DNA from: Amniculibacterium aquaticum
GTDB lineage: Bacteria > Bacteroidota > Bacteroidia > Flavobacteriales > Weeksellaceae
Direction of reading: 5' to 3'
DNA: 64,000 bases
NCBI RefSeq assembly: GCF_003852705.1
Contig: NZ_REFA01000004.1
Span: 62,001-126,000 of the forward strand
The notes beneath the pieces were generated by a model, which saw only the letters and a list, made by a program, of their open reading frames with translations, had not been told where the DNA came from and did not search any database. How positions within the stretch are numbered: the first letter of the stretch is position 1; each line of letters begins with the position of its first letter. Of the stretch, positions 322 to 62,274 are shown piece after piece. The position numbers and the translations under genes are program-made.

Positions 322-1866
322 ATGCATTTAGAAAAAATTACACAAAGATATTTAGACCTTTTTCCAACCGACAGATCTAAGAATACCATGCAAAGAACCG
401 TCCCAAACATTCTTTCTTGCTTGGTTGATCCCGTAAAATTCGACCTTCCCAAACTTCTCTATTTTAATGAACAACTTTCGGAAGAATTGGGTTTAGGAAA
501 AATTGAAAATCATAAAGACGAAGATTTCTTAGCTGCCCAAAATCTCCCCAAAAACATCCGTCCTTTTGCAACGGCCTATGCCGGACATCAGTTTGGACAA
601 TGGGCAGGACAATTGGGCGATGGCAGAGCAATCTATGCCGGAGAAATCCTACAGAAAAATGGAAAATTTCAAGAATTACAATGGAAAGGAGCAGGTGCAA
701 CCCCATTTTCTAGAGCTGGAGACGGTAGAGCGGTATTGCGATCGACCATTCGTGAGTTTTTGATGTCCGAAGCCCTGCATCATTTAAAAATCCCAACCAC
801 AAGAGGTCTAAGCATTTCCCTGACTGGCGAACAAGTCATCCGAGATGTTTTATACAACGGCAATCCCAAACCGGAACCAGGAGCCGTTATGCTAAGAACC
901 GCTGAATCTTTTCTAAGATTTGGACATTTCGAGTGGTTTTCGGCTCAAAGGGATTATGAAACTCTAGAGAAACTAGGTCTATTTTGTATTGAAAATTATT
1001 ATCCCGAAATCGATTTGAATGACGATAATAAATACAAAAAATTCTTTGAACAAATCCTTGAAAGAACTGCCAATTTGATGGTAGATTGGCTTAGAGTCGG
1101 TTTTGTACACGGTGTGATGAACACCGACAATCTTTCGATAATCGGACTAACCATAGACTATGGGCCTTTTTCGATGTTGGACGAGTACGACACCTCTTTC
1201 ACCCCAAATACGACCGACCTTCCGGGAAGAAGATATGCTTTTGGCGAGCAAGGAAAAATCGCACAATGGAACCTCTGGAAATTGGCAAATGCCCTTTTCC
1301 CTTTGATTGAAGACGCTGATTATTTAACCGAAAAACTGGAATACTTCAACGATTATTTCAACCAAAAGAACGATGAAATGCTCTGTAAAAAATTTGGATT
1401 TGAAAACATGAAAGAGGACTATGCTGCGTTTTTTGAAGAATGGCAATTGTTGATGGAAGATTTGGTCTTGGACTACACCTTATTTTTCACAGCATTGGAA
1501 AAATGGAAACCGGAATTTGAGCTCAAAAGCCATTTTCAAACTTGTTTTTACAAAAACAACAGCCCGGAAGAATTTCAAAAGCTAAGTGCGTTTTTAAAAA
1601 AATATGATGAATTCATTTCAAATCAAAATTTCGAAGAAGAAAAACGAATGCAATTGATGCAAGAAAACAACCCAAAATTTGTGCTTAGAAACTATTTACT
1701 GTACGAATGCATAGAAGAAGTTAGTCAGGGAAAAATGGAGCTTTTTAACACCTTATTTCTCGCTTTACAAACCCCTTACGATTGCGACAATGCTTCATTA
1801 ACCCAAAAAAGACCCAACAAATACGACAACCAATCCGGATGCAGTATGCTGTCGTGTAGTTCGTAA
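322..1866 (+). CDS. selO: SelO/YdiU family protein adenylyltransferase
   Basis: A 514-residue pseudokinase-fold enzyme of the SelO (UPF0061/YdiU) family. In E. coli this family transfers AMP from ATP to Ser/Thr/Tyr of target proteins, with a role in redox stress. Visible family motifs are YAGHQFG (86-92), GQLGDGRA (96-103), the WKGAG lysine region (121-125), SRAGDGRAVLRS (130-141), HGVMNTDN (263-270) and the metal-binding DYGPF region (about 279). The protein ends GCSMLSCSS; the C-terminal cysteine pair is where animal SelO has selenocysteine. Length is normal for the family. The last 84 bp are repeated in diverged form at 4461-4544. Confidence 0.95.
   Translation: MHLEKITQRYLDLFPTDRSKNTMQRTVPNILSCLVDPVKFDLPKLLYFNEQLSEELGLGKIENHKDEDFLAAQNLPKNIRPFATAYAGHQFGQWAGQLGDGRAIYAGEILQKNGKFQELQWKGAGATPFSRAGDGRAVLRSTIREFLMSEALHHLKIPTTRGLSISLTGEQVIRDVLYNGNPKPEPGAVMLRTAESFLRFGHFEWFSAQRDYETLEKLGLFCIENYYPEIDLNDDNKYKKFFEQILERTANLMVDWLRVGFVHGVMNTDNLSIIGLTIDYGPFSMLDEYDTSFTPNTTDLPGRRYAFGEQGKIAQWNLWKLANALFPLIEDADYLTEKLEYFNDYFNQKNDEMLCKKFGFENMKEDYAAFFEEWQLLMEDLVLDYTLFFTALEKWKPEFELKSHFQTCFYKNNSPEEFQKLSAFLKKYDEFISNQNFEEEKRMQLMQENNPKFVLRNYLLYECIEEVSQGKMELFNTLFLALQTPYDCDNASLTQKRPNKYDNQSGCSMLSCSS
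1783..1866 (+). repeat. Direct repeat copy A: 3' end of selO
   Basis: The last 84 bp of selO (codons 488 to stop) match 4461-4544 in the same orientation with about ten substitutions. Between the copies lies the XRE/GLPGLI block. The matches stop abruptly upstream of codon 488. Confidence 0.85.
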
Positions 1867-1872
1867 AAAGTT

Positions 1873-2187
1873 TTATGGATTTTTTAGAATTTTCATAACT
1901 TCATTTATCGTTTTTTTATCTGATACCAACATAATCATAACACTGTTGTTGAATGTATTATCTTTGAAATCTTGAATAATATTAACTTTTTCTTCATTTT
2001 TAAATAAATCACTTATTTCTACTCCAAAAATTTCAGCAATTTTTGGAATGAATTCAGATTTTATATCACATAATTCGTTTTCCCAATTAATATAAGTTTT
2101 TCTGTCTACTTCTAACAAATCAGCAACTTCTTGCTGTGATAGTTTGTTTCTTGACCTTAACACCCTTAATTTACTTCCAATCATCAT
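1873..2187 (-). CDS. XRE-family transcriptional regulator
   Basis: A 104-residue protein with an N-terminal helix-turn-helix of the Cro/C1 (XRE) type: residues about 5-60, with LSQQEVADLLEVDRKTYINW as the recognition unit and FGVEISDLF after it. The remaining 40 residues are not recognised. It is transcribed away from the secreted-peptide/GLPGLI genes and probably controls that divergent promoter and its own. A −7 box (TATTTTTG on the minus strand, 2199-2206) lies just upstream of the tandem ATG ATG start, and a perfect 9-bp inverted repeat lies at 2228-2250. The gene ends 6 bp past the selO stop. Confidence 0.85.
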   Translation of the reverse strand: MMIGSKLRVLRSRNKLSQQEVADLLEVDRKTYINWENELCDIKSEFIPKIAEIFGVEISDLFKNEEKVNIIQDFKDNTFNNSVMIMLVSDKKTINEVMKILKNP

Positions 2188-2198
2188 ACTCTTTTTTA

Positions 2199-2206
2199 CA
2201 AAAATA
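2199..2206 (-). promoter_or_regulatory. −7 promoter element of the XRE regulator gene
   Basis: Read on the minus strand this is TATTTTTG, matching the Bacteroidota consensus TAnnTTTG, 11 nt upstream of the start codon. No clear −33 TTG was found. Confidence 0.5.
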
Positions 2207-2227
2207 TAAAAGTATCCATAAAAACAC

Positions 2228-2250
2228 CCATTTTTTGTGAAAAAAAATGG
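2228..2250. promoter_or_regulatory. Inverted repeat, candidate XRE operator
   Basis: CCATTTTTT (2228-2236) and AAAAAATGG (2242-2250) form a perfect 9-bp dyad with a 5-nt spacer. It sits between the −7 boxes of the two divergent promoters, a typical place for an autoregulating XRE repressor to bind. The A/T-rich arms make chance occurrence possible. Confidence 0.4.
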
Positions 2251-2255
2251 ACTAC

Positions 2256-2282
2256 TTGTTCAATTTTTACAATCTACATTTG
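2256..2282 (+). promoter_or_regulatory. Promoter of the secreted-peptide/GLPGLI operon
   Basis: TACATTTG (2275-2282) matches TAnnTTTG and lies 23 nt before the ATG at 2306. TTG at 2256-2258 is 16 nt upstream, slightly shorter than the usual spacing. Confidence 0.5.
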
Positions 2283-2305
2283 TATAAGTAATTAAAAAAA
2301 ACATT

Positions 2306-2788
2306 ATGAAAAATTTTACACTATTAGTTGTACTTTTTATCAGTACACTTTTCTATGCCAATCAAAAAGTAGAGGTATATAGAAACAACAACATTAATGA
2401 GATAAAAGTTGATAAAAAACCTTTATCAATTTACCACAACAACGAAAAATTGGAAACAATCATTGTTGTAGGCTCTGATTTTGAAGGAAAAATAACTTCA
2501 ATTTCAATAGAAACTGAGAATAATACAATATCTTTGGAAAAGGTATTTAATCTAAATGAAATGCAAACAGGAATAAAAAAAGTTGTAGAATATATTTCTG
2601 GAAAATTTATCAATAATACACCAAACGGTATTGGAGAACCTGCAGCAGTAAAATGTGCAATGGATTGCAACGACAAGTATAATTGCTATAACAAGCCTAC
2701 CGAAGTAGGAACTTTCTTGTGCCTACAAGACTGTGTTATAGAATGTTACTTCTTACCAAAATCTAATTCAATACAAAATTTAAATTAA
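2306..2788 (+). CDS. Secreted six-cysteine protein, paralogue 1
   Basis: A 160-residue protein of unknown function. It has a Sec signal peptide (MKNFTLLVVLFISTLFYA, cleavage about residue 18) and a C-terminal module of six cysteines spaced C-x3-C-x5-C-x11-C-x3-C-x3-C, with CYNKPTEVG in the middle. The same spacing and the same C-Y-x-K-P-T-x-x-G core recur in the protein at 3607-4173, so the two are paralogues. An extracytoplasmic, disulfide-bonded module is the natural inference. It is the first gene of a three-gene operon with the GLPGLI protein. I do not recognise a named family. Confidence 0.75.
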   Translation: MKNFTLLVVLFISTLFYANQKVEVYRNNNINEIKVDKKPLSIYHNNEKLETIIVVGSDFEGKITSISIETENNTISLEKVFNLNEMQTGIKKVVEYISGKFINNTPNGIGEPAAVKCAMDCNDKYNCYNKPTEVGTFLCLQDCVIECYFLPKSNSIQNLN

Positions 2789-2789
2789 T

Positions 2790-3602
2790 GTGAAAAATCT
2801 AATATTATTCTTCTTACTTTTATCAAATGTGATTTTTGGACAAGACTTAATTGTGCAATATAAATACGAAAAACAATATTCATTAAAAGACACTTTGAAA
2901 ATTACAGAGTATGATTATTTGAAAATATCCGGTAATAAATCGATATTCTTTAGTGAAGGAGAGTATAAAAGCGATTCTATTATTAATAACAGTAAACAAA
3001 AAATAGATTTTAAAAGTTTACCGGATGATAGATTAGGTTGTATAATTACAAAAGATTTATCAAAAAAAGAAATCGTTTTTTACTCTAATGATTTTTTAGA
3101 AAACAATTTTAAATATTCTGAAAATCCAAATTTCAAATTTGAAATAACCGATAAGAAAAAAAATATCCTTGGATACGATTGTACATTAGCCAAAACCAAT
3201 TATGGCGGTAGAGATTATAACATTTATTTCACCAATCAAATACCCATACAAGAAGGTCCCTACAAGTTTTTTGGTTTACCAGGATTAATTTTGCAGGTCT
3301 ATGATGTGGAGAGAAAACATTCTTTTACCGCGGTTGGTATCACAAAAAACAAAGCGTATATACAATTGGATATTTCCAAACGGAAGTTCGTAGAAATTAC
3401 ACGGCAAAAATATTTTATTGTCAGAAAAAATTATGAATCCAACCCTATGCAAAGGTTATTCGAGTTAATGAATAGTACACAAATTTATGAGAAACCGGAC
3501 GCCAATGGAAACATGGTTAATCTCATAGAATTAAATAACAGAGTTCAAAAATCAATGATTGAACAATTCAAAACACAAAATAAAATTGAAATAAAACCTT
3601 AA
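2790..3602 (+). CDS. GLPGLI family protein 1
   Basis: A 270-residue exported protein with a signal peptide (MKNLILFFLLLSNVIFGQ). The motif FGLPGLILQVYD at about 165-176 defines the GLPGLI family (TIGR01200), a Bacteroidota family of unknown function. The reading frame opens at GTG 2790, one base after the preceding TAA; the ATG at 2788 is out of frame and is followed directly by a stop, so the GTG start (translational coupling) is preferred. It lies between two paralogous six-cysteine secreted proteins, which suggests the three act together in the periplasm or at the cell surface. Confidence 0.85.
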   Translation: MKNLILFFLLLSNVIFGQDLIVQYKYEKQYSLKDTLKITEYDYLKISGNKSIFFSEGEYKSDSIINNSKQKIDFKSLPDDRLGCIITKDLSKKEIVFYSNDFLENNFKYSENPNFKFEITDKKKNILGYDCTLAKTNYGGRDYNIYFTNQIPIQEGPYKFFGLPGLILQVYDVERKHSFTAVGITKNKAYIQLDISKRKFVEITRQKYFIVRKNYESNPMQRLFELMNSTQIYEKPDANGNMVNLIELNNRVQKSMIEQFKTQNKIEIKP

Positions 3603-3606
3603 AAAC

Positions 3607-4173
3607 ATGAAAAATTTAATATTAAAAACAACATTCTTAATCATTTATACTCTAGGTATATCAATTTGCCAAGCAAATACTGTAAATGACGATACACCTA
3701 CAAATTATTCTGAATTCAAGAAAAACAAAAGCCCTAAAAATGTAACATTCGAGTTATTAACCAAATCAAAGACCTCTTTTGTTGGATACGATGAAAAAAT
3801 TGATGATTTTTACACCATATACAAAAAAGATACAAATGGCAACGGTTATTACTTCAAAGTAATTGTAGATAGAGCAACACAACTACCTATAGCGACTTAC
3901 TTGGCAAATGAAAAAAAAGAAAAAATATCTGTAGAGTCCAAGAATAATGCAGTTTCGGTTAGCAAGACCATTTTTCATCAAACCATAGTTGTAGATGGAG
4001 ATCCTATTTTTAGTAATGAGGCAACAAAATGTGTAATAAAATGTCATAGAGAAAATGGCTGTTATGATAAACCTACCAACCTTGGAGCGGCACTTTGTTC
4101 GGCAGATTGCATGTTGAGTTGCGACGATAAAACAAGCTCACCTAAGCCAAAAAAATTGGAAAATATTAATTAA
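3607..4173 (+). CDS. Secreted six-cysteine protein, paralogue 2
   Basis: A 188-residue protein with a signal peptide (cleavage near ICQA-NT, about residue 24), a central region without recognisable domains, and a C-terminal cysteine module with exactly the same C-x3-C-x5-C-x11-C-x3-C-x3-C spacing as the protein at 2306-2788 (core CYDKPTNLG). It starts 4 bp after the GLPGLI gene and is the last gene of the operon, followed by a terminator. Outside the module the paralogues differ strongly, so the cysteine part is the conserved unit. Function unknown. Confidence 0.75.
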   Translation: MKNLILKTTFLIIYTLGISICQANTVNDDTPTNYSEFKKNKSPKNVTFELLTKSKTSFVGYDEKIDDFYTIYKKDTNGNGYYFKVIVDRATQLPIATYLANEKKEKISVESKNNAVSVSKTIFHQTIVVDGDPIFSNEATKCVIKCHRENGCYDKPTNLGAALCSADCMLSCDDKTSSPKPKKLENIN

Positions 4174-4186
4174 TGATCTTAAAAAT

Positions 4187-4218
4187 AAAAAAGTTGTCCT
4201 TTTCGGGCAACTTTTTTT
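4187..4218 (+). terminator. Terminator of the secreted-peptide/GLPGLI operon
   Basis: GTTGTCC (4193-4199) pairs with GGGCAAC (4205-4211, one G-T wobble), flanked by an A-run and followed by seven T. Confidence 0.75.
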
Positions 4219-4460
4219 AAGTCAATTTTGTTTCTGTTTATTTTTTATTCAAACCTAAACTTATATATCACTCAATTCTGCAGAAGATGAGTCCAATCTC
4301 TACCCCTGCAATAATTTTCATAATCTGAAATAACGAAAATTTCACATAGAAAAATGGTTGTTCGGTAATATTAAAAAGAAGATTTCTCCTATAAAATAAG
4401 CTCTATACATGTTATACTTTTTCTTTTGCTGACAAGTTTCGTAATGGAGTTCGGTGGGTT
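4219..4460. other. Non-coding spacer right of the GLPGLI operon
   Basis: AT-rich sequence with no credible gene, RNA or mobile-element end. It joins the operon terminator to the duplicated selO tail. Matching bases with the sequence just upstream of codon 488 in selO were looked for and not seen. Confidence 0.5.
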
Positions 4461-4544
4461 TGCAACAATGCTTCATTAACAAAAAAAAGACCCGGCAAAT
4501 ACGACAACCAATCCGGATGCAGCATGCTCTCCTGCAGTTCTTAA
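4461..4544 (+). pseudogene. Diverged remnant of the selO 3' end (direct repeat copy B)
   Basis: In frame this reads CNNASLTKKRPGKYDNQS followed by GCSMLSCSS and a stop. It is nearly identical to the SelO tail at 1783-1866: three or four amino-acid changes, while agt/agc, ctg/ctc, tcg/tcc, tgt/tgc and tcg/tct are silent. It has no start and no upstream coding continuity. It is followed 10 bp later by a terminator that may have been the original selO terminator. The excess of silent changes suggests the tail diverged while part of a working gene, for example in another strain. Confidence 0.8.
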
Positions 4545-4553
4545 AAAAATAAA

Positions 4554-26444: not shown

Positions 26445-26972
26445 ATGAAAATTATTTCAAGAACATTTTTTATTGCTTTAGCACTAATCTCTCACCTGTC
26501 TAGTGCCCAACAAGTTACAAAGAGAGACACTTTGAACGGGACGGAATTGATCATGACCATGGACACAAAAATATCCAATGAACTTTCCGATTTGGAAGAA
26601 AAATGCCTGGACAAAAAAGACAGAAACCCAAATTTCGAAAATGGTACAAAAGAGAACAATAAAATCGTTGTTCCCAATAGAGCGCTGACCAACGAAGAAA
26701 TCTGTCGAAAAAACCCAAGAATTTCTGGCTTTAAAATTCAAGTAGTCGTCGTAAAATCCAACGATGAGGCGAATAAAATACGAAGTGACTTCCGTACTAA
26801 ATTCCCATACCTCAAAGTAGAGATCGACGCTTCACTTAGGCCAAATTATAAAATTTTAGCAGGCAGTTATTTTACAAAAACCAGCGCTGCATCTGATCTT
26901 AAAAGCATTAGAAAACAGTACAATACAGCCGTACCCATCCAATACAGAATTTTTTGTGTTGAAGCGAAATAA
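26445..26972 (+). CDS. Secreted SPOR-domain protein
   Basis: A 175-residue exported protein: signal peptide MKIISRTFFIALALISHLSSA, a short charged linker, and a C-terminal SPOR domain (about 97-170: FKIQVVVVKSNDEANKIRSD, YKILAGSYFTKTSAASDLK). SPOR domains bind peptidoglycan stripped of stem peptides, so a periplasmic wall-associated role is likely. It diverges from the act operon and is monocistronic with its own terminator. Confidence 0.82.
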   Translation: MKIISRTFFIALALISHLSSAQQVTKRDTLNGTELIMTMDTKISNELSDLEEKCLDKKDRNPNFENGTKENNKIVVPNRALTNEEICRKNPRISGFKIQVVVVKSNDEANKIRSDFRTKFPYLKVEIDASLRPNYKILAGSYFTKTSAASDLKSIRKQYNTAVPIQYRIFCVEAK

Positions 26973-61156: not shown

Positions 61157-61978
61157 TTAATCAAGAAAATTATTCCTTCTGCTTAGGTTTTTATTAATCA
61201 TTTCTTCATCTTCTTTTGCTACTTTTCGTCGTAATTTTACATAAGAAACAGGAGATTTTAGAAATTCTTTTCTTTTGTCTAGAAATCTAGAATATGTAGT
61301 TTCTATGGCGTTCTCAATTATTTTAAATTCGGTTTTTCTCTTTTCTAAAGAAATTAATAAAAATTGATTATTCATTTGAACATCATCAATTTGTAGAATC
61401 AAACCTGGCAGACCTTTAAAATTGTAAGGTCCTTCTGGAATTGGGATCTCATTGGAATACCAAGCTATAACCATCCTATTTCCATAACTTCCTTCTGCTT
61501 TCTTACACAGATGTCCACTTATCATTTTTGTTTCATTAATGAGTTTCCACAAACATTTATTTACTGGTTTATACCGATATGAATCGGTATAAATATTGTC
61601 ATAAATATACACATTTCCGTTGTTTACAAAAACCTCTGGCTCAAATACCGCTGAAGAAACCGAAGGACTAACAAAAGTAAAACCTCCTGTTGAAGATGCA
61701 TTATCAAAGGCTTTGTTAAACGCTTGATTATAGATAGAATCAACCACAAACTTTTGATGACTTCTAAATAATGAACCTTTTTCTCCTATCTGGAGAGTTG
61801 CTAATTCAACATATCTTGTGCTTACATCTAAAGTGTCATCAATTGATGAAATCCTATATTTACACAATAAATTCGCTGAATATATACCTTCCTGACACAA
61901 CAAATAATTTGTTGACATAAGAAAAATAAATAAGACTGTTTGAAATTTACTGAATTTAATTGTCTTTCCCCAATCCAT
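61157..61978 (-). CDS. GLPGLI family protein 2
   Basis: A 273-residue exported protein: signal-like MDWGKTIKFSKFQTVLFIFL (hydrophobic 10-25, ending YLLCQ). The family motif FKGLPGLILQIDDV lies near residue 185, preceded by EIPIPEGPYN as in the protein at 2790-3602. The start MDWGKT at 61978 overlaps the upstream small gene by 23 bp; the start at 61996 adds six residues. Same family as the first locus but otherwise diverged. Function unknown; paired with a small secreted cysteine-containing protein. Confidence 0.85.
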   Translation of the reverse strand: MDWGKTIKFSKFQTVLFIFLMSTNYLLCQEGIYSANLLCKYRISSIDDTLDVSTRYVELATLQIGEKGSLFRSHQKFVVDSIYNQAFNKAFDNASSTGGFTFVSPSVSSAVFEPEVFVNNGNVYIYDNIYTDSYRYKPVNKCLWKLINETKMISGHLCKKAEGSYGNRMVIAWYSNEIPIPEGPYNFKGLPGLILQIDDVQMNNQFLLISLEKRKTEFKIIENAIETTYSRFLDKRKEFLKSPVSYVKLRRKVAKEDEEMINKNLSRRNNFLD

Positions 61979-62274
61979 TATTATATGATTTACCACATGT
62001 TTCTATTTCAGCTAGCAGCGCTTCTTTCTTAGCACATTCATGTGCCGCTTGTATCGATTTTGCATCACCTGAAGTATACCTATATCCGCTATTCTCAATG
62101 ATTGGACCACATGTTGTATGGGTATTCGTCTGATAGCAAACCTGTTCAACAGTATTCGCTAATTTACTTTTCACATTTTCACTCACAACCATTTTCTGAT
62201 GTTCCATTTTTCCGTTGTTGGCACTCATCAATCCCGCAACACAAATCGTTGCCATTACTAATAACTTTTTTCAT
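61956..62274 (-). CDS. Small secreted cysteine-containing protein, apparent frameshift in the signal peptide
   Basis: An uncharacterised protein of about 105 residues upstream of GLPGLI protein 2 and overlapping it. The mature part has four cysteines (VCYQTNTHTTCGPIIE; AAHECAKKEALLAEIETCG). The in-frame ATG at 62255 leaves a truncated signal. Another ATG at 62274 is followed by six A; removing one A gives a perfect signal peptide MKKLLVMATICVAGLMSA continuous with the mature protein. So the gene either carries a real A6 slip or the base is a sequencing error. The spacing does not match the six-cysteine modules of the first locus. Confidence 0.6.

Follow-up and report, generated by a model that had tools for sequence, protein, structure and literature searches.

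Small TIM chaperones carry a twin-CX3C arrangement and are antiparallel helical hairpins pinned by Cys pairs. The alpha-hairpinins of plants are described as antimicrobial helix-loop-helix peptides with four Cys (PMC11591084, PMC7191063). The GLPGLI family (TIGR01200; Pfam Porph_ging, PF09697) is large, abundant and unexplained, and the literature searched (partial texts, mostly from outside subscription journals) assigns it no role: several GLPGLI genes are included among the PhoP-regulated genes of Riemerella (PMC9603813), the family is named in a table entry (PMC8757827) and it is mentioned once more (PMC5771137). The same search for GLPGLI, of the same partial and mostly non-subscription scope, returned no description of a unit joining secreted Cys-containing proteins to a GLPGLI protein. 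Such a unit is described here from a 64,000-nucleotide stretch of the Amniculibacterium aquaticum genome, analysed as a whole and referred to as the window; the cassette offers a way of finding out what the GLPGLI family does.

The locus and its insertion site

The cassette occupies positions 1870 to 4459, at the end of a SelO gene (322 to 1866, forward strand; Pfam SelO, E 7.7e-125) which marks the insertion site and lies outside the system. Its first forward-strand gene (2306 to 2788) encodes 6C-A (P0001), an exported-type protein of 160 aa made up of an N-terminal part and a six-Cys module (C117-C147; 2654 to 2746, forward strand, located from sequence and alignments). The second (2790 to 3602, forward strand, GTG start) encodes a GLPGLI protein of 270 aa (P0002) with the GLPGLI motif at residues 162-167 (3273 to 3290, forward strand), and the third (3607 to 4173, forward strand) encodes 6C-B (P0003), an exported-type protein of 188 aa with a predicted alpha/beta domain and a predicted six-Cys helical hairpin (C142-C172; 4030 to 4122, forward strand). 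As only 1 base separates the 6C-A and GLPGLI genes and 4 bases the GLPGLI and 6C-B genes, a single transcript is likely; a terminator-like hairpin with a T run (4191 to 4220, forward strand) can be read 3' of 6C-B. An XRE-family regulator gene (P0004; 1873 to 2187, reverse strand; Pfam HTH_19, E 2.1e-13) diverges from the operon, and a palindrome with 9-bp arms between XRE and 6C-A (2228 to 2250; equalled in 2 of 200 Markov shuffles) is a candidate operator. The original prediction had described two secreted six-Cys proteins on either side of a GLPGLI protein and an XRE gene transcribed divergently from them, and these genes are as it described them; it had overlooked the insertion with its duplicated SelO tail, as well as the exported-type Cys proteins beside a good part of the other GLPGLI genes in this genome.

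The last 88 nt of the intact SelO gene (1782 to 1869, forward strand) are repeated, 89% identical, as an orphan copy at 4460 to 4547 (forward strand), which continues into a terminator-like hairpin (the ancestral terminator) and a convergent DUF5689 gene. In a genome of the same genus (G002), the SelO and DUF5689 ends lie only about 60 bp apart, i.e. the site is uninterrupted, and the right tail copy and hairpin of the window align with this junction. The duplicated tail and the aligned junction therefore indicate that the cassette was inserted at the SelO gene end, leaving a spare tail behind. The cassette is foreign, AT-rich DNA at this gene end: its GC content of 27.8% is lower than that of all 123 sliding windows of 2590 bp (minimum 28.4%), against 38.0% for the window as a whole. 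As a separate observation, the SelO protein of the window is 60% identical to its G002 counterpart and 58-59% to those of four other genera, while its DUF5689 neighbour is 81% identical to the G002 counterpart, which suggests that SelO may itself have been exchanged when the cassette arrived.

About seven different cassette sites were encountered in total. G002 has its own cassette elsewhere, between SurA-like and MlaD-like genes, and other cassettes adjoin serS, flank an isochorismate synthase gene on one side or the other, lie within peptide islands or occupy a Frigoriflavimonas site; two Chryseobacterium species carry two different cassettes each (L067/L081 with L086; L068 with L100). Cassette dS falls under flank dS at two of three site pairs, namely the first (0.06-0.20 vs 0.36-1.01) and the second (0.44-0.58 vs 2.3 for marC and 1.3 for an XRE gene, batD not being computable), whereas at the serS pair it is not lower (0.40-0.69 vs 0.34-0.47). 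No integrase gene was seen in the cassette, and its movement by a dedicated enzyme or by homologous recombination at gene ends is equally likely.

The encoded proteins

The pattern C-x3-C-x5-C-x11-C-x3-C-x3-C with a CY(N/D)KPTxxG core is common to 6C-A and 6C-B, an exact match to the shared module and CYxKPTxxG core first noted for the two outer proteins, and the N-termini of both read as signal-peptide-like from the sequence. In the first eight modules aligned, all six Cys are invariant, as are K and T within the KPT core; some later Chryseobacterium modules carry Q in place of K or S in place of T. The paralogy initially ascribed to the outer proteins holds for the module and fails for the N-terminal parts: in profile-profile comparison, only 41 C-terminal columns align (98.1%, E 6.5e-14) and the N-terminal parts have no detectable relationship, so that one module is borne by two different N-terminal parts. 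Within cassettes, mean identity between 6C-A and 6C-B is 44% for the modules and 27% for the N-terminal parts, the latter under forced alignment.

The predicted model of 6C-B is of moderate quality (pLDDT 74, pTM 0.70) and consists of four strands and a helix, followed by helices 137-150 and 158-176, with all six module Cys placed within or beside these two helices. Across the hairpin, the Cys positions of 6C-B sum to 314 (142+172), 314 (146+168) and 316 (152+164), and the equivalent sums in 6C-A are 264, 264 and 266; this register fits an antiparallel hairpin with three stacked disulfides (C1-C6, C2-C5 and C3-C4). The prediction of a disulfide-braced helical hairpin for the module thus comes from register and not from coordinates.

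The 6C-B fold has no convincing match in the PDB (best Foldseek E 0.049, best VIA Z 4.7), an absence that proves nothing, and the NCBIfam matches of both 6C proteins are to other families and weak (E at least 0.007), far under the cut-offs, the three relatives scanned yielding none at E <= 0.1. Neither protein matches bacteriocin families, leaders or precursors; the Pfam matches of P0001 and P0003 include no toxin family. Among the PADLOC anti-phage models, none is matched by P0001-P0003 at E <= 0.1, and 14 are matched by P0004, which is taken as a reflection of the shared HTH. PHROGs yields three weak matches of unknown function for P0003 (E at least 0.03) and regulator-type matches for P0004. 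A viral, phage or plasmid origin was rejected, since viral contigs yielded no confirmed P0001 relative and plasmids and phages none of P0003.

P0002 is a full GLPGLI member (156.1 bits against TIGR01200, curated cut-off 50) and also matches Pfam PNGase_F-II_N (E 2.1e-8). The other cassette GLPGLI proteins are 42-57% identical to it (35% for the Frigoriflavimonas L082/L061 member), and five other GLPGLI proteins in the same alignment 24-30%. The AF2 model (pLDDT 87.1, pTM 0.82) has as its top fold match the N domain of PNGase F-II (4r4z_A: Z 17.2, 174 aligned, rmsd 3.2), followed by 7zgn (Z 15.3) and then by 2yzy (a Thermus protein), VioE, LolA, EPDR1 and RseB/MucB at Z of about 8-9.6. The LolA match (2w7q_A: Z 9.0, 139 aligned, rmsd 3.8) is near the range of common arrangements, and the likeness to LolA and RseB at Z 8-9 may be a shared arrangement, a fold showing no function. 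P0002 is predicted from its model to be an exported, cup-shaped LolA/RseB-like protein; the cup-shaped half-barrel fold occurs in carriers of hydrophobic cargo. The catalytic N-glycanase domain is absent (the protein ends at 270 aa and has no such Pfam match), and no LolA model of Pfam or NCBIfam is listed for P0002 at E <= 1.

Recurrence and genomic neighbourhood

A profile of the six-Cys module, searched over 320 genomes of the family Weeksellaceae, matched 18 at E <= 0.01, of which 15, from six genera, are strong (E < 1e-10); the three weak genomes (G278, G100 and G163) were excluded from the strong count. The strong genomes carry 17 loci, G095 and G031 having two apiece, and at 16 of these a GLPGLI gene is no more than about 1.5 kb away (15 full-length, one truncated), so that co-occurrence of the module with GLPGLI, proposed from a single locus, extends beyond the lineage in which it was noticed. 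By arithmetic from the 28 GLPGLI matches in the 2.55 Mb of the window's genome, a random point would lie that near a GLPGLI gene in about 4% of cases. The truncated case (G092, near a contig end) has an intact 6C-B and only the last ~66 residues of GLPGLI, and the exception with no nearby GLPGLI (G208) retains only a broken 6C-B. One GLPGLI gene lies 0.4 kb before the module gene and another 1.3 kb after it in G019; in G338, GLPGLI follows the module gene by 1.3 kb with an ABC-type gene pair between. A recognisable 6C-A is absent at G207, G306 and Frigoriflavimonas L060, the last with an intact GLPGLI and a broken 6C-B.

Twelve complete cassettes were compared (ten of the 17 loci and two from C. 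binzhouense found by pattern scan). The strand is fixed in these and the gene order is 6C-A, GLPGLI, 6C-B in 11, the Frigoriflavimonas L061 cassette differing (6C-A, 6C-B, GLPGLI). A regulator adjoins 6C-A in all 12 (nine divergent XRE, two divergent AraC-TPR and one Crp-like on the same strand), which supports the control first attributed to the divergent XRE gene. The recurrence of three genes and a regulator in 12 complete cassettes is more than chance, and the regulated unit of secreted Cys proteins and GLPGLI that was originally suspected is real. By eye, the nine XRE regulators fall into about three types. The intergenic palindromes of nine cassettes were equalled by 2 to 52 of 200 shuffles and, being individually weak, are only suggestive as operators; one of them is an island of identity among three cassettes sharing an XRE type. 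Crp-type regulators, similar by eye, were also seen upstream of GLPGLI operons in two genera (L061, 4565-5137; L015, 2815-3393), and a domain scan of the L061 regulator alone found a cNMP-binding domain.

The cassette's three genes are a recurring unit under purifying selection, with dN/dS of 0.04-0.17 for 6C-A, GLPGLI and 6C-B in three species pairs (at the serS pair, 6C-B was compared over 87 aa only); no positive selection, which would have been a signature of toxins, was found in these pairs. The distance matrices of the three proteins are congruent over the 12 cassettes (Mantel r 0.94-0.96, with 0 of 2000 permutations as high), which is what joint inheritance alone gives and is expected if the proteins travel together.

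Beyond the family, the module was sought by a pattern scan of 84,980 species, which returned 38 stretches, 13 of them in Weeksellaceae. The remaining 25 (Paenibacillus, Listeria, archaea, Kordia, Aureispira and others) have no GLPGLI by HMM, and in only 12 of them does the module stand in an ORF of at least 40 aa; the pattern required both K and T within the KPT core, and K-to-Q or T-to-S variants would escape it. The module profile matched nine of 395 genomes of the order at E <= 0.01, only G000 and G306 strongly, both from the same family. Neither search produced anything convincing for the module outside Weeksellaceae.

Two of the 12 cassettes are located inside RiPP/bacteriocin islands. 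The C. edaphi island (L069) has a C39-peptidase ABC exporter, HlyD and a SPASM-type maturase piece, and that of G196 (L223) has a grasp-with-spasm type ATP-grasp gene and a bacteriocin-like leader peptide over its cut-off; the grasp and SPASM proteins of these islands, both seen in part, score under the curated cut-offs. VKOR-thioredoxin fusions are the kind of enzyme that makes disulfides, and a gene for one lies 248 bp after 6C-B in G196. The region just downstream of 6C-B there (L223, 7586-9696) holds this fusion and a bacteriocin-like, Cys-rich precursor of 66 aa.

A wider survey applied a fixed rule for a small exported-type protein with at least 2 Cys directly upstream of GLPGLI genes, with a home-made signal-peptide test, duplicates merged and one G000 GLPGLI match at a contig edge excluded. 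Such a protein precedes 25 of 105 GLPGLI genes over all sets (14/27 in the window's genome, 4/24 in G078, 1/9 in G021, 5/14 in G377 and 1/31 in the others), as against 3 of 71 other genes having a signal peptide, 0/51 other genes in the same loci and 0/43 in the window. The pattern is marked in the window's genome even when its own cassette is left out (13/26 vs 3/71, p 7.8e-7) and weaker outside that genome (11/78 vs 3/71, p 0.035); an earlier form of the signal-peptide rule had given 14/28 vs 0/71. In G019, the genes with which GLPGLI genes alternate encode exported-type Cys proteins, a 6C protein, an ABC ATPase accompanied by a membrane protein, and a large protein containing a carboxypeptidase-regulatory-like domain. 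The cassette thus resembles a single branch of a more general tendency among some GLPGLI genes.

Several further observations touch on this neighbourhood. The window holds a second GLPGLI gene (61157-61996, reverse strand), preceded by a small 5-Cys exported-type protein (region 61157-62255) whose leader looks out of frame with the expected start, so that the gene may be broken or mis-assembled. Elsewhere in the same genome (L012, C48, 2226-2795), an exported-type protein of 168 aa stands before another GLPGLI gene with a different Cys-rich tail, which suggests that proteins of this kind may exchange tails. A 175-aa exported-type protein of the window (26445-26972, forward strand) resembles, by eye, the GLPGLI neighbour of G338 (L146, 8618-9154). 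Plasmid-borne GLPGLI genes were found in 15 records. Two Prevotella corporis plasmids (L231 and L230; 12.3 and 7.9 kb) each carry a Txe/YoeB addiction pair. On the larger, two GLPGLI genes are annotated, and a hypothetical gene of 2.6 kb directly follows one of them; the smaller has an unannotated GLPGLI match.

Possible roles and comparison with known systems

The best explanation, put forward tentatively and at rather less than even confidence, is that of an apparently horizontally spread accessory cassette encoding secreted, disulfide-braced and probably antagonistic 6C proteins, with GLPGLI as their periplasmic partner. The 6C proteins, predicted to exit the cytoplasm through Sec, would be oxidised in the periplasm, where GLPGLI would hold or escort them as a cognate partner and perhaps also shield the producer from them. 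Once released, the pair would act extracellularly, most likely against related bacteria in the manner of a bacteriocin, and XRE would repress the operon until needed. We infer both the partnership and the activity, antagonism being read from the mobility of the cassette, its rarity (15 of 320 genomes) and the two cassettes within islands. Against antagonism, the 6C proteins match no bacteriocin family, they are conserved (low dN/dS) and not fast-diversifying, unlike many toxins, the intact 6C-B beside a truncated GLPGLI in G092 is unexpected under a strict toxin/immunity model, and a RiPP-island location is limited to 2 of 12 cassettes. Among the functions proposed at the outset, toxin/immunity-like antagonism has thus gained some contextual support, while none was found for signal-peptide processing or redox sensing.

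A bolder extension, possible though doubtful, is that many GLPGLI proteins of Flavobacteriales are LolA-fold partners, each with its own small disulfide-rich exported protein, and that the cassette is a mobile, separately regulated branch and a new class of two-protein secreted antagonists. If the reading as dedicated LolA-fold partners is true, it would give the GLPGLI family a function for the first time; should the partnership prove general, it would amount to an unnamed Bacteroidota way of handling exported disulfide-rich proteins. Because the cassette is compact, has two fixed partners and comes with a predicted fold and an empty-site control, it makes the GLPGLI family testable by simple deletion and pull-down.

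An unlikely alternative is an acquisition or surface-binding cassette, in which the 6C proteins would bind a ligand (metal, haem, lipid or glycoprotein) outside, a LolA-like GLPGLI would receive the ligand or complex in the periplasm, and an outer-membrane barrel would perhaps be encoded elsewhere. It draws on the predicted GLPGLI fold, which an N-glycanase has in its N domain and which is similar to that of carriers of hydrophobic ligands, on the ABC ATPase beside GLPGLI genes in G019, and on the large exported proteins that other GLPGLI genes adjoin (one tested has the carboxypeptidase-regulatory-like domain, and its being an outer-membrane barrel is presumed). Nevertheless, no such large gene was read among the ORFs inside the 12 complete cassettes, the invariant Cys with their hairpin register look structural, and a patchy distribution is less typical of uptake.

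The low dN/dS and the G092 locus weigh against a strict toxin/immunity pair, with the 6C proteins as toxins and GLPGLI solely as their immunity protein, as does the need for a single immunity gene to serve two different N-terminal parts. The Frigoriflavimonas L060 locus (intact GLPGLI, broken 6C-B, no 6C-A found) and the 15 plasmid records fit such a pair, which is nevertheless improbable. Still less probable is envelope sensing, whereby an RseB/MucB-like GLPGLI and the 6C proteins, as ligands or modulators, would inform the regulator of the state of the envelope or of its redox state: RseB/MucB is among the predicted fold matches (Z about 8) and each complete cassette has an adjoining regulator, but the cassette holds no anti-sigma or inner-membrane link gene, and the regulator families (XRE, AraC-TPR and Crp-like) are unrelated, which argues against a conserved sensing pathway. 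That abundant GLPGLI genes (28 matches in 2.55 Mb) and small secreted genes merely meet by chance or loose clustering is scarcely credible, being contradicted already by a gene order that is conserved between genera (the same in 11 of 12 complete cassettes, with fixed strand), by GLPGLI at 16 of 17 loci and by the congruent divergence of the three proteins over several genomic sites.

Among known systems, the type II toxin-antitoxin arrangement differs from this locus, where XRE is divergent, the neighbours have signal-peptide-like starts and P0004 stays under antitoxin-model cut-offs such as that of PezA (32.9 of 290 bits). Two cassettes are located in Chryseobacterium grasp-with-spasm/bacteriocin-like RiPP islands; the 6C proteins differ from RiPP precursors in their apparent Sec-type starts and in matching no precursor family. 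Like the alpha-hairpinins, the six-Cys module is predicted to form an antiparallel helical hairpin pinned by Cys pairs with CX3C spacing, and the 6C-B model has the helix-loop-helix feature (helices 137-150 and 158-176); however, the module has six invariant Cys in place of the four-Cys motif of alpha-hairpinins (PMC11591084). Unlike alpha-hairpinins and TIM chaperones, to which they bear an outward likeness, the 6C proteins are bacterial and carry the module fused to an N-terminal domain. The modelled half-barrel arrangement of GLPGLI may resemble that of the LolA/LolB/RseB-MucB carriers (Z about 7-9), from which P0002 differs in having no sequence-family match to them in Pfam or NCBIfam. Its predicted fold is held in common with the N domain of PNGase F-II (4r4x/4r4z) and with 7zgn (Z 15-17), but in PNGase F-II a catalytic domain follows the N domain and in P0002 none does. 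P0002 is a GLPGLI protein (TIGR01200, Porph_ging) scoring over the family cut-off and, unlike other GLPGLI proteins, those of the cassette clade are bracketed by two six-Cys proteins.
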